A stretch of 64,000 bases of DNA from positions 310,001 to 374,000 of the forward strand of contig DATCTN010000031.1 in NCBI GenBank assembly GCA_036567965.1, given 5' to 3'. Under the pieces are notes generated by a model. It did not search any database and had not been told where the DNA came from. It saw only the letters and a list, made by a program, of their open reading frames with translations. Each line of letters opens with the position of its first letter. The stretch's first letter is position 1. This DNA comes from Candidatus Kryptoniota bacterium (GTDB lineage Bacteria; Bacteroidota; Ignavibacteria; Kryptoniales; JAKASW01). Below, one piece after another: positions 16,204 through 21,232 of the stretch. A program made the position numbers and the translations under genes.

Positions 16204-18948
16204 TCAGGAGCAACCGCTTGTGGAGCCACAGTTGAGGCATTTGTAGCATGAACCGCTCCGGATCATAATGGAACCACATTCATGACACGGAGGTGCGTCT
16301 GCCTGTTCCTGGAAGACCTTCTTCTCAGTTTGTTCCAGCGATATCTTGAATTCCTTTTTTCCTTCCGTCTTTGGCTCGGCAACGATCGAGTCGACGACGA
16401 CAGAAGCGGGCTGTTCTTCCCGGGGGAGGAATTTCAGTCCCATCCACCTGAAGATATAATCGAGTACCGACTTTGCGATCGGGACATCCTTGCTGTTTGT
16501 GAAGCCGGACGGCTCGAAGCGCATATGGCTGAACTTGTCGACCAATACCTTCAGAGGCACGCCGTATTGAAGGGCGAGCGATATTCCAGTGGCGAATCCA
16601 TCCATCAGACCGCTGATCGTCGACCCCTCTTTTGACATCGTGATGAAGAGCTCGCCAGGAGTTCCATCCTCGTAAAGGCCGACCGTTATGTAACCCTCAT
16701 GTCCGCTGATGCTGAACTTATGAGTTACTGCGTTGCGCTCATCCGGCAATCGACGGCGTATGACTCGTGTCGGGGCCTTCTCGTCCTTAGCCTGGGGGAC
16801 CGGCTCCGATTTTCCGGTATCTTTCTTCGTGCTCAAGGGCTGAGTTCTCTTGGATCCGTCCCGATAAACGGCAATCGCCTTCAGGCCGAGCTTCCATGCT
16901 TCGATATATGCCTGCTCGATATCATCGACGGTGGCCTCGGCTGGAAGGTTGACAGTCTTTGAAATAGCTCCCGAGAGGAACGGCTGAACCGCGGACATCA
17001 TCTTTATGTGACCCATATAATGTATTGATCGGGTTCCGTTCACAGCCTTGAACGCGCAGTCGAAGATGGGAAGGTGTTTATCCTTCAGATGCGGGGCACC
17101 TTCAATAGTGGCGTTCGCATCGATGTACTTCACTATTTCGTCTATCTGCTGTTCATTGTATCCGAGTGTGCTCAGTGCCAGAGGGACCGTGTTGTTAACG
17201 ATCTTCAGATATCCGCCGCCGACGAGTTTTTTGTATTTCACCAGTGCAATGTCCGGTTCGACTCCGGTCGTGTCGCAATCCATCATGAATCCGATCGTTC
17301 CGGTCGGGGCGAGTACCGATATTTGCGAATTTCTATAGCCATACTCCTTGCCGATGGTGAGTGCATCGTCCCACACTTGCTTTGCGGAGTCGACCAAATA
17401 TTCCGGAATAATGTCATGATTGATCTTGTCTACATGAGCTCTGTGTTTTCTGATAACTCCAAGCATAGGTTCGCGATTTGTTTCGAACCCTTCAAAGGGT
17501 CGAATATTCTGGGCGATGAGAGCGCTCTGCCTGTAGCCCTCGCCGGTCATGATCGCGGTTAGCGCGCCGGCATATGCTCTTCCTGCATCGCTGTCATATG
17601 GCAATCCCAGTGACATTAGCAGCGCGCCAAGATTCGCGTACCCGATTCCGAGTGGTCGAAACGCGAAACTGTTTTTCTCAATAGACTTCGTGGGATAGCT
17701 TGCGTTCCCGACAATGATTTCCTGAGCAGTAATGGTAATATCGACCGAGTGAATATACGCCTCGACGTCGAACGAACCGTCGTCTCTCCTGTACTTCATC
17801 AGGTTCAAAGAAGCCAGGTTGCATGCGCTGTCGTCCAGAAACATATACTCGCTGCAAGGATTCGAGGCGTTAATCGGAGCTGTGTTGGAGGATGTATGCC
17901 AGCTGTTGACTGTGGTGTGGAACTGCATTCCCGGATCACCACTAATCCAGGCAGCGGTAGCAATCTCTCTCATTAGCTCGCGAGCCCGATACGTTCCTGC
18001 CGGTTTGCCGTCTCTCACATTCTTTGTTGACCATTCCTTATCTTCAAGCACCGCCCGCATGAAGTCGTCTGTCGCCCTGACGCTGTGGTTGGCGTTTTGA
18101 AATTGGACAGAATCGTAAGCACCGCCTGGGACATTGAAGCCGGAATCGTAACCCGCGTCAATCAATGCCCAGGCTTTCTTTTCTTCCTCTGCTTTGCTCC
18201 TGATGAAGTCCAATACGTCGGGATGCTCTGCGTTCAAAATCACCATCTTTGCGGCGCGGCGCGTTTTCCCGCCGGACTTGATCACTCCCGCGAAGGAATC
18301 GAAGCCTCGCAGAAATGAGACAGGACCAGAAGCTGTACCACCACCTGATAATCTCTCCTTTGAAGAGCGGAGTGATGAAAAATTCGTCCCGGTTCCGCTC
18401 CCCCACTTGAAAAGCATACCTTCCGTCTTGGCTAGGTCGAGTATCGATTCCATCGTATCTTTGACGGAGTTGATGAAACACGCCGAACATTGGGGTTTGT
18501 CTTCCACACCCACATTGAACCAAACCGGGCTGTTGAAAGAGACATACTGGTTCACCAAGAGGTATGCCAGTTCGTCGTAAAAAGCAGAAGCGTCGTCATG
18601 GGAAGCGAAGTAGCCGCCCTTGATTCCCCATGTGGTGAAAGTCCTTGCAACGCGGTCGACAATCTGCTTAACGCTGCTCTCTCGCTCAGGTGTGCCAAGC
18701 TGGCCGTGAAAATACTTCGAGACCACTACGTTGGTCGCAGTCATGCTCCAGAACTCAGGAACTTCCACGTCATCCTGCTGGAATATTACCTCGCCCTTTT
18801 CGTTTGAGATCGAAGCGGTTCGTTTCTCCCATTTTATTTCGTCAAACGGATGGAGTCCCTTCTTTGTGAAGTGACGCCGAACAGACAGCCCGCCCCACGC
18901 GGACCGAGCCAGTGTATCATCAGAAACGAACGCATCGGTGTATCCCAT
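16204..18948 (-). CDS. nrdJ: Adenosylcobalamin-dependent (class II) ribonucleotide reductase
   Basis: Reduces ribonucleotides to deoxyribonucleotides using adenosylcobalamin as radical source, independent of oxygen. The 914-residue protein has the core with the substrate-site cysteine in QCSACFINSV, NPCSEYMFLDDSACNLASLNL carrying the radical Cys and catalytic residues, and the barrel-end APTGTIGFMMDCDTTGVEPD. A linker (about 745-790) and a C-terminal domain with Zn-ribbon cysteines (CHEC and CYKCLNC, then SGCS) that re-reduce the active site follow, as in Thermotoga-type NrdJ. No class I or III reductase is in the window. The ribosome site AAAGGAG lies close to the ATG. A structured leader and a promoter are recorded separately upstream. 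Confidence 0.97.
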   Translation of the reverse strand: MGYTDAFVSDDTLARSAWGGLSVRRHFTKKGLHPFDEIKWEKRTASISNEKGEVIFQQDDVEVPEFWSMTATNVVVSKYFHGQLGTPERESSVKQIVDRVARTFTTWGIKGGYFASHDDASAFYDELAYLLVNQYVSFNSPVWFNVGVEDKPQCSACFINSVKDTMESILDLAKTEGMLFKWGSGTGTNFSSLRSSKERLSGGGTASGPVSFLRGFDSFAGVIKSGGKTRRAAKMVILNAEHPDVLDFIRSKAEEEKKAWALIDAGYDSGFNVPGGAYDSVQFQNANHSVRATDDFMRAVLEDKEWSTKNVRDGKPAGTYRARELMREIATAAWISGDPGMQFHTTVNSWHTSSNTAPINASNPCSEYMFLDDSACNLASLNLMKYRRDDGSFDVEAYIHSVDITITAQEIIVGNASYPTKSIEKNSFAFRPLGIGYANLGALLMSLGLPYDSDAGRAYAGALTAIMTGEGYRQSALIAQNIRPFEGFETNREPMLGVIRKHRAHVDKINHDIIPEYLVDSAKQVWDDALTIGKEYGYRNSQISVLAPTGTIGFMMDCDTTGVEPDIALVKYKKLVGGGYLKIVNNTVPLALSTLGYNEQQIDEIVKYIDANATIEGAPHLKDKHLPIFDCAFKAVNGTRSIHYMGHIKMMSAVQPFLSGAISKTVNLPAEATVDDIEQAYIEAWKLGLKAIAVYRDGSKRTQPLSTKKDTGKSEPVPQAKDEKAPTRVIRRRLPDERNAVTHKFSISGHEGYITVGLYEDGTPGELFITMSKEGSTISGLMDGFATGISLALQYGVPLKVLVDKFSHMRFEPSGFTNSKDVPIAKSVLDYIFRWMGLKFLPREEQPASVVVDSIVAEPKTEGKKEFKISLEQTEKKVFQEQADAPPCHECGSIMIRSGSCYKCLNCGSTSGCS

Positions 18949-18978
18949 CTAGACTTCTCCTTTTATATTGAAGAAAAT

Positions 18979-19057
18979 GCCGTCTCGTACTGCAGACTGA
19001 ATTGGTTTGAGCCCGCCCTGAGGCTGGCCTCGAGGGTATCCTGCTGTGCCAGACGGC
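18979..19057 (-). promoter_or_regulatory. Structured 5' leader of nrdJ, candidate riboswitch-like element
   Basis: On the minus strand a 79-base unit is bounded by GCCGTCT (19057-19051) and AGACGGC (18985-18979), a perfect 7-bp closing stem. Inside it CCCT and GAGG pair with CCTC and AGGG around a CCAG loop (bulged C on the 5' side), and a GCAG/CTGC pairing is possible. The element ends 30 bases before the nrdJ start codon and about 14 before the ribosome site, so folding could affect translation. I do not see a B12-box of the classical cobalamin riboswitch. An nrdJ-associated RNA motif is known in other bacteria; I cannot verify a match. Confidence 0.5.
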
Positions 19058-19105
19058 AATCAATTTCAAATTTCCAGCGCTCAACTTAGCTGAGAATCGG
19101 TGTCC

Positions 19106-19134
19106 AAATTATCCCTGAAATCGAGCAAAGTCAA
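19106..19134 (-). promoter_or_regulatory. Candidate nrdJ promoter
   Basis: On the minus strand TTGACT (19134-19129), 17 bases, and TAATTT (19111-19106). The predicted start near 19099 gives a leader of about 150 bases that contains the structured element. Confidence 0.6.
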
Positions 19135-19139
19135 GAGAT

Positions 19140-19457
19140 TAAGCCCGAGAATTGACTTCAACGCAAAGTTTGTTTGGTGTTTTATTGGTCTCAAAACTCC
19201 AGTAACTCCAGTCCCCGAGAAATTACTTTAAATGATAAATTGATTGAGTCCTTTCCCTAAAAATCGTGTGCTTGGGCATGGCAGTTGCGTTTATATCTGA
19301 CTATGCCATGTATTCGCAGGTATGGGCTGGCGGCACGAACAAATGGAGTCTGCAATCTTCTGGCGGCTCGATGCCTGAACGGACGATTTTGAGCAAGCAT
19401 ATTTATCTGTACCATGATACAGATGTTTCTGATTCGGACATAAGATCGGTCGAGTCG
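19140..19457. other. Gene-free stretch between nrdJ promoter and response regulator
   Basis: No convincing gene. Two inverted repeats are visible: CATGGCA 19277-19283 with TGCCATG 19304-19310, and ATCTGTA 19405-19411 with TACAGAT 19418-19424. A short direct repeat, TGGCGGC followed by CGA within five bases, occurs near 19330 and 19363. The second inverted repeat lies just downstream of the response regulator gene and could be a weak terminator, but it lacks a strong U-run. Confidence 0.4.
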
Positions 19458-19820
19458 TCAGATAAGTTTGTTCACGGCTTCGAGAAGCTCCCCGGTCGTG
19501 TAGGGTTTTTGAAGGAGCCCATCCGCGTAATTCTCCAAAACATCTTCGAGGTCCGATAGCTGACTGTAACCTGTAGATATAAGCACCTTCGACGGTCGGG
19601 CTCTCTTCTTCAACTCCACACATGTTTCTCTACCGCCCATGACAGGCATGATCATGTCGAGCACAACCAGATCTACATCTCCTGACTCGTCGAGGCGATC
19701 TATAGCAAGCTTGCCATTTGCCGCCGTCACGACGTCAAACCCATTCCCGCCAAGAATCTCAAGCCCAAGCTGCCGAACATCTTCCTCATCGTCAACGATC
19801 ATTATCCGCAGTCTCTTCAC
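19458..19820 (-). CDS. Stand-alone response regulator receiver protein (CheY-like)
   Basis: A single receiver domain of 120 residues with no output domain. The acidic pocket is Asp10-Asp11 (MIVDDEED), the phospho-acceptor Asp55 (VVLDMIMP), the switch Thr83 (LISTGYS) and Lys105 (LLQKPY). The sequence LISTGYS and QKPYTTGELL resembles receiver domains attached to hybrid histidine kinases. It starts at GTG 19820 with a GAGG ribosome site. No kinase lies nearby, so the partner is unknown; it probably signals through protein contacts. Confidence 0.93.
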   Translation of the reverse strand: MKRLRIMIVDDEEDVRQLGLEILGGNGFDVVTAANGKLAIDRLDESGDVDLVVLDMIMPVMGGRETCVELKKRARPSKVLISTGYSQLSDLEDVLENYADGLLQKPYTTGELLEAVNKLI

Positions 19821-19907: not shown

Positions 19908-19963
19908 TTGACATAAAGGACTCTCGAGGTTATATTTCGGACATAACCATCTGATATATGTCC
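19908..19963 (+). promoter_or_regulatory. rrf2 promoter with overlapping palindromic operator
   Basis: A near-consensus promoter: TTGACA 19908-19913, exactly 17 bases, TATATT 19931-19936. Immediately downstream GGACATA (19939-19945) and TATGTCC (19957-19963) form a perfect inverted repeat with an 11-base centre. It covers the expected transcription start (about 19943) and the ATG start codon at 19958. Binding of a regulator here would block initiation, so autorepression by the encoded Rrf2 protein is likely. Confidence 0.65.
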
Positions 19964-20407
19964 TTAATATTTAGCAGGCAATGTGAATACGCTCTTCAGG
20001 CTGTGCTGTACATGTCCGCACAGCCTGACAAGAGATTTACAAACATAATCGAGATGAGTGATCGACTTGGAATCCCGATGCCTTTTCTCGGCAAGACTCT
20101 GCAGTTGCTCGTGCAGGGCAAAATACTTTCCTCGCAGAAAGGCCCGAAGGGCGGATTCAGGCTGGAAAGGGACCCGGAAGAAATAGCTCTGTTCCATATC
20201 GTTGATGCAATCGATGGAACCGATTTCCTCACCTCATGTGTCCTTGGTTTCCCGGAATGTTCGACAAGAAATCCCTGTCCGATGCATTCAGAATGGGGAG
20301 TACTTCGGGACAAAGTTTATCAAATGCTGGCTAACAAGACGATTTCCCAGATCTCCAGAGAGATCAAAGCGAGCAAACAGATGCGGACAAAACTGAGACT
20401 CACGTGA
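19958..20407 (+). CDS. Rrf2-family regulator with Fe-S cysteine triad (NsrR/IscR-like)
   Basis: A 149-residue winged-helix repressor of the Rrf2 family. The DNA-binding part has the recognition region PMPFLGKTLQLLVQGKILSSQKGPKGGF, and three cysteines at 94, 101 and 107 (C-x6-C-x5-C) occupy the position that holds an Fe-S cluster in NsrR and IscR (NsrR has 93/99/106). This suggests sensing of nitric oxide, iron-sulfur status or redox state. Next come a broken Fe-S membrane gene, a hemerythrin and ywiC, which favours an NsrR-like NO response over IscR, as no isc or suf gene is near. It starts at ATG 19958 inside its own putative operator. Confidence 0.9.
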   Translation: MSLIFSRQCEYALQAVLYMSAQPDKRFTNIIEMSDRLGIPMPFLGKTLQLLVQGKILSSQKGPKGGFRLERDPEEIALFHIVDAIDGTDFLTSCVLGFPECSTRNPCPMHSEWGVLRDKVYQMLANKTISQISREIKASKQMRTKLRLT

Positions 20408-20526: not shown

Positions 20527-20772
20527 ATGACACGAGCAGATATCCGAAGTTACGTCCGGCTTTCCTTCTTACCGATGACTCCCTGGATCGGAACAGAGTT
20601 TTATCTTTTCAAAAGAAAATTGGAGCACGGAGAAGTTGCCACAATCAATCACCTGCCAGGCGTCGAGGGCCTTCTCCCAGTAAGTGCACTTGTCGGTTTA
20701 CGCTGCTTGCTCCTCACTGGAATAGTGTACCATATTTTCGATGATATTGATTCCGCCGGCCATGTATTATAG
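20527..20772 (+). pseudogene. Truncated remnant of a 4Fe-4S membrane protein (NapH/CcoG-like N-terminus)
   Basis: The frame from ATG 20527 begins with ADIRSYVRLSF and runs through IGTEFYLF, LPGVEGLLPVSALVGL and LLTGIVYHIF, which is the order of motifs at the N-terminus of polyferredoxin-type 4Fe-4S membrane proteins (typical form VEGFLPISAL, then LLTG and HPAG). It breaks at DSAGHVL with TAG, just where the family continues into its membrane helices and ferredoxin cysteines. None of the cluster cysteines follow in any frame. About 80 of roughly 300 residues remain. The ancestor probably belonged to the Rrf2 regulon. The family match is from memory of the motif pattern. Confidence 0.6.
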
Positions 20773-20776
20773 CAGG

Positions 20777-21232
20777 ATGCCCTCACAACCGATTGACGTT
20801 CTGAAGTGGGAACATGAGTTGATCCTGAGCAGGCTTGATGATCTCCTCTCCAGGGCGAGTGAAGCGCCGTGCGTCAAGACATTTATGATTCGATCGCAGA
20901 CTGGAAGGCTGCTGAAGCTGCAGGAGCTTCACCAGGAGGCCGAGGAACGCTTTCTCTTTCCGTTAATGTCCGAAGTGGACGAATCTCTCATTTCATCTTT
21001 GAGAGTTGAGCACGCATCTCTTTTCCGGAGTTCTGATGTGATACAATCGACCGCCACAACTCATGAAATCAAAGAGCTCGTGCCTGTGCTCATGAGTCTC
21101 AAAGACGAACTCAAGAAGCACTTCGAAAAGGAAGAATCGAAGATCTTTGAAAACGCCCAGATTATTTTAACGCCGGCGAAATCCGATATTCTGAAGATAA
21201 AATTTGCCACCAGGAACCTGGCGATCATATGA
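20777..21232 (+). CDS. Hemerythrin-domain (HHE) protein
   Basis: A small four-helix-bundle di-iron protein of about 151 residues. Candidate iron ligands in order are His in KWEHELI, His in LQELHQEAEERFLFP with its Glu, His in RVEHASLF, and His and Glu in KKHFEKEESKIF. Single-domain HHE proteins bind O2 or NO or help repair damaged iron centres (RIC/YtfE-like). The start is uncertain: ATG 20777 fits the family alignment, whereas 20762 or 20741 would extend into the preceding remnant. The stop overlaps the ywiC start by ATGA, so the two are co-translated. Position behind an NsrR-like regulator favours a nitrosative or oxidative stress role. Confidence 0.88.
   Translation: MPSQPIDVLKWEHELILSRLDDLLSRASEAPCVKTFMIRSQTGRLLKLQELHQEAEERFLFPLMSEVDESLISSLRVEHASLFRSSDVIQSTATTHEIKELVPVLMSLKDELKKHFEKEESKIFENAQIILTPAKSDILKIKFATRNLAII

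Follow-up and report, generated by a model that had tools for sequence, protein, structure and literature searches.

How is nrdJ controlled in a genus that seems to have no other ribonucleotide reductase, and does the folded RNA that precedes the gene have a part in this? The locus lies in a window of 64,000 nucleotides (the whole stretch of DNA analysed here), for which an original prediction saw a TTGACT-17-TAATTT promoter, a leader of about 150 nt with a closed 79-nt element and a ribosome site, in this order before nrdJ, and held control by coenzyme or nucleotides to be plausible. Our reading of the sequence agrees with the promoter, the leader and the order of parts; for coenzyme or nucleotide sensing, we obtained no positive evidence. 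The gene itself is the following.

16204-18948, minus strand: nrdJ, adenosylcobalamin-dependent (class II) ribonucleotide reductase of 914 aa, from NCBIfam and Pfam matches

Its product scores over the cut-off for PRK06556 (1455.7 bits) and TIGR02504 (592.7 bits) of NCBIfam and carries the Pfam domains PF02867, PF08471 and PF12637. Each genome of the genus (13 species) has one copy of nrdJ, and the proteins of the 12 sister species are 86-91% identical to that encoded here. Since searches of the 13 genus genomes, with positive controls, yielded neither a class I small subunit (PF00268) nor a class III enzyme (PF13597), nrdJ appears to be the sole ribonucleotide reductase of the genus. NrdR was not found either, TIGR00244 giving matches in 0/13 genus genomes and, as a positive control, in 9/14 control genomes. 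Neighbours of the nrdJ region are a stand-alone response-regulator receiver (19458-19820, minus strand), an Rrf2-family regulator (19958-20407, plus strand) and a hemerythrin-domain protein (20741-21232, plus strand).

Between the predicted transcript start and nrdJ, the fold of the leader comprises these parts.

18979-19057, minus strand: 79-nt closed element
19051-19057, minus strand: 5' arm GCCGTCT of its closing stem P1, pair probability 0.97
18979-18985, minus strand: 3' arm AGACGGC of P1, directly before the ribosome-site tail, from the fold
19016-19036, minus strand: inner hairpin CCCUCGAGG-CCAG-CCUCAGGG, pair probability about 0.8
18955-18975, minus strand: ribosome-site region, in which TTCTTC (18975-18970) can pair with the Shine-Dalgarno GGAGAA (18960-18955), pair probability 0.70

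Read on the minus strand, the 79-nt element is indeed closed by seven perfect pairs (19057-19051/18985-18979, GCCGTCT/AGACGGC), which an extra T-A pair extends to 8 bp, and it folds at -32.8 kcal/mol with a z of -3.14, a value that 0/200 shuffles equalled. The inner hairpin with its CCAG loop likewise has the 8 pairs foreseen for it, with one bulged C (CCCU(C)GAGG-CCAG-CCUCAGGG). The leader interior alone gives a z of -2.3 (9/200 shuffles as good) and the entire leader, taken from CGATTCT, is unexceptional (z about -1, 28/200 shuffles as good). As the whole leader is thus ordinary against shuffles, the fold significance of the 79-nt element is a local one and owes something to selection by eye; the element probably belongs to a structured leader. 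No terminator-like hairpin was found in the nrdJ leader, hence terminator-type attenuation is rejected, and the nrdJ leaders hold no conserved upstream ORF common to the species.

Given the cofactor of the gene product, a variant of the cobalamin riboswitch, or else a member of another Rfam family, suggests itself, the more so as the genus has cobalamin riboswitches: one clear copy per genome is found in 11/13 genus genomes and this genome has, away from nrdJ, a canonical one of 92.5 bits.

C29:41318-41530 (L115): canonical cobalamin riboswitch of the same genome, with the box AAGCCAGGAGACCTGCC, before a TonB-receptor-like reading frame (receptor judged by eye)

A terminator-like hairpin (GCCCGCC...GGCGGG plus a T run) stands between this riboswitch and the TonB-receptor-like frame. 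In the nrdJ leader, a B12 box as in AGCCAGGAGACCTGCC is absent when read by eye, as the original prediction had noted. Compared with 4227 Rfam families, the leader gave no match even at E<=10, nor did it match the remaining families of Rfam 15, an nrdJ-associated one among them should Rfam contain it; at gathering score, no Rfam match was obtained in the window or at the 13 genus nrdJ loci. Because this type of search finds the genome's true copy yet none here, a cobalamin riboswitch is excluded for the nrdJ leader at all sensitivities that were available. The suggested kinship with cobalamin riboswitches or another Rfam family is thereby refuted at this search sensitivity, and we assign it next to no probability. 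What the leader shares with RF00174 is its place as a cis element before a B12-related gene, whereas it lacks both the B12 box and a match to the model. A related case is known from Streptomyces, where a B12 riboswitch controls the class Ia ribonucleotide reductase operon nrdABS (Borovok 2006, as cited in PMC5962746), whose enzyme does not use B12. Both systems have a leader ahead of a ribonucleotide reductase gene; here, however, the gene is B12-dependent and the only ribonucleotide reductase found, and no riboswitch was detected.

The strong local fold in this species, together with the function of the gene and the position of the element, might also be explained by a new ligand-binding riboswitch for nrdJ that responds to adenosylcobalamin, dNTPs or similar. 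However, a homologue of the 79-nt element was not found by sequence in the 12 sister species of the genus, which gave short chance matches only, and with the element lacking any sequence relative a genus-wide conserved aptamer is unlikely. Known riboswitch aptamers retain a conserved core among relatives, and the riboswitch reading suffers from the fact that these close relatives, in spite of their highly (86-91%) identical proteins, share no such core. Moreover, a B12-OFF switch would be odd where no ribonucleotide reductase other than nrdJ was found. So to our minds, a new riboswitch is very unlikely. The element could also be a dispersed repeat or insertion that chances to sit in the leader, as it is near-palindromic and leader content varies among clades, two of the leaders (L012, L013) being about 100 nt longer. 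It is, however, a single copy in its own genome and in the genus, which refutes this origin for the 79-nt element and leaves it barely any probability.

If the element itself is private to this species, what do the leaders have in common? Two further features enter here.

19091-19099, minus strand: conserved 5' arm CGATTCTCA at the predicted transcript start, from cross-species alignment
19080-19094, minus strand: 5'-terminal hairpin I, CTCAGC/GTTGAG in this species, from the fold and a cross-species pairing test

Recurring features are a covarying 5'-terminal hairpin, complementarity between the 5' arm and the Shine-Dalgarno region and, in most species, a stem before the ribosome site. Mean pairwise identity among the 13 species is 28% in the leader interior and 53% in the tail, where TTCAAgATaAAagGGAGGAG before the ATG is kept across the genus. 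Folded together by RNAalifold, the 13 leaders yield almost no consensus (-0.3 kcal/mol). The two longer leaders contain a 12-17 bp imperfect stem around GTTTGGAGACG/CGTTTCTGAGC, and look-alike stretches are seen in leaders that cannot be aligned: ACCAATCAGTC (L012), ACCAATCGGC (L013) and ACCAATTCAGTC (L001).

Pairing was assessed independently of alignment, by comparing species-matched with swapped partners and with control window sets; with 13 species in 7 clades (grouped by sequence, from one genus) and several windows picked after viewing the sequences, the P values given here serve as guides only. For hairpin I, the 5' arm (the first 9 nt of the predicted transcript) was set against the nearby 30 nt downstream and matched pairing was stronger than swapped pairing by species (P 0.002) and by clade (P 0.025), a value reached by 0/300 control window sets. 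Its arms vary while pairing is kept, as in GACACTC/GAGTGTC (L010), ATTCTC/GGGAAT (L009), ATTCCT/AGGAAT (L012) and ACTCT/AGAGT (L003), so that base pairing maintained by covariation, the mark of a structured 5' leader, is present in hairpin I. The stem ahead of the ribosome site keeps its position in most species with differing sequence. For the 16 nt that precede the ribosome-site tail, set against the leader interior, matched again exceeded swapped partners (P 0.0006 by species and 0.027 by clade), and the stem surpassed 148/150 control sets in cognate advantage and 150/150 in energy. In the full-leader folds of L003, L008, L011, L012 and L013 it is weak or missing. With 7 clades from one genus, the clade-level values of 0.025-0.027 are modest. 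P1 of the 79-nt element is this species' form of the recurring stem. The condition that the original prediction set for its own refutation thus gave a mixed outcome: the part of the leader that covaries is hairpin I rather than the 79-nt element, and the 12 sisters lack the element as a sequence, with an interior at 28% identity, yet most of them have a stem of different sequence in the same place, and this stands above control windows.

These results bear on the notion that the leader interior is incidental, a fast-evolving and moderately GC-rich spacer that separates the promoter from the ribosome site. Its low identity is in keeping with such a spacer, as are the findings that the majority of leaders fold no better than shuffles and that L011 lost most of the L010 structure. 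Hairpin I and the position of the stem before the ribosome site, on the other hand, both exceed control windows, and we regard a purely incidental interior as unlikely.

A different proposal is a two-state translation switch, in which the 5' arm GAYTCTC pairs locally and leaves the ribosome site free, or else pairs with the Shine-Dalgarno and closes it, the interior deciding between the two. Shine-Dalgarno sequences are in use in this genome (9/21 long ORFs vs 11% background). The 5' arm ranks first or second among the partners of the Shine-Dalgarno region in 10/13 leaders, its mean pairing energy with the Shine-Dalgarno lies beyond that of all 300 control sets and, in 10/13 species, the energies predicted for its local and its Shine-Dalgarno pairing differ by no more than about 2.5 kcal/mol; in L010, GACACTC/GAGTGTC is perfect for both partners. 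Matched partners, however, have a marginal advantage over swapped ones (P 0.09 by species and 0.18 by clade; 0.05 against control windows), and pairing with GGAGGAG is to be expected of any 5' arm rich in pyrimidines. Nor is there a clear difference in accessibility, the predicted mean for the Shine-Dalgarno being 0.23 and thus barely lower than the 0.28 obtained with shuffled leader bodies, and the effect is negligible in the species of the window itself, where 5' arm pairing with the Shine-Dalgarno is weak and adds no stability. Hence, we consider the switch possible yet doubtful. The larger claim of a genus-specific leader class absent from Rfam, whose 5' arm would switch between hairpin and ribosome site while the diverging interior answers to cobalamin or nucleotide status, is to us improbable.

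Conservation across the genus directs attention to the DNA in front of the leader.

19106-19134, minus strand: promoter with -35 TTGACT (19134-19129), a 17-nt spacer and -10 TAATTT (19111-19106), from sequence and 13/13 conservation
19135-19183, minus strand: block upstream of the -35 (AAAACACCAAACAAACTTTGCGTTGAAGTCAATTCTCGGGCTTAATCTC), a putative operator, from cross-species conservation

A consensus promoter scan gives no site here, the pair scoring 8/12; being present with identical spacing in all 13 genus members, the promoter is nonetheless not a chance match. An alternative -10, GATAAT (19113-19108, spacer 15), overlaps TAATTT and is closer to sigma-70. The -10 consensus of Bacteroidota, TAnnTTTG (PMC6847099), was rejected for this site, as TAATTTG is one base short. 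Mean pairwise identity in the 13 species is 73% for the promoter and 73% for the 60 bp upstream of the -35 (27% when shuffled), and in the alignment of the 13 nrdJ upstream regions about 95 bp are kept rigidly and without indels from AAACACCAAACAAA via the promoter to CGAYTCT. The roughly 50 bp of 19135-19183 are kept at fixed spacing in all 13 and contain AAGTCAA...TTGACTT and AACAC/GTGTT-like inverted repeats. Near-exact copies of the block occur at nrdJ only; since it is 73% identical and confined to this gene, versus 28% for the leader interior, the strongest selective signal lies in the DNA upstream of the 79-nt element. The combination of promoter and GAYTCTC start gave scattered matches at other genes, none of which resembles a promoter before a gene, and relatives at the level of order and class (L014 onward) share neither block nor leader as judged by eye.

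NrdR boxes are conserved, partly palindromic DNA of 16 bp adjoining the promoters of nrd operons, and the block upstream of nrdJ is likewise conserved, partly palindromic and next to an nrd promoter. Unlike at such boxes, though, its spacing is ACAC-12-GTGT, and NrdR is absent in 13/13 genomes, so NrdR control of the nrdJ promoter is rejected.

The reading that we favour, at about an even chance, is control of transcription at an operator specific to the genus, combined with a structured leader that tunes translation or stability. Transcription of nrdJ would start near 19101-19097 from the conserved promoter, and the main regulated input would probably be transcriptional, through the block upstream of the -35 and by a regulator other than NrdR. 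The leader RNA is predicted to form hairpin I at its 5' end, a long but variable stem that stops just ahead of the ribosome site and a weak pairing around the Shine-Dalgarno, structures which may determine how stable the mRNA is and how readily ribosomes reach it. For some members of the genus, pairing of the 5' arm either with its hairpin partner or with the Shine-Dalgarno region is conceivable, and there a two-state translation switch may be envisaged. Some 5' UTRs carry hairpins that sequester the Shine-Dalgarno or protect the 5' end, and the 5'-terminal hairpin of the nrdJ leader with its predicted pairing to the Shine-Dalgarno region is similar to these; it differs in that its interior evolves fast and in that it is a prediction from sequence.

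For the biology of the genus this means that deoxynucleotide supply appears to depend on one B12-dependent enzyme, whose gene is preceded by no riboswitch and which has to do without NrdR. The operator block and the 5' hairpin offer two concrete sites at which control of nrdJ may be tested.
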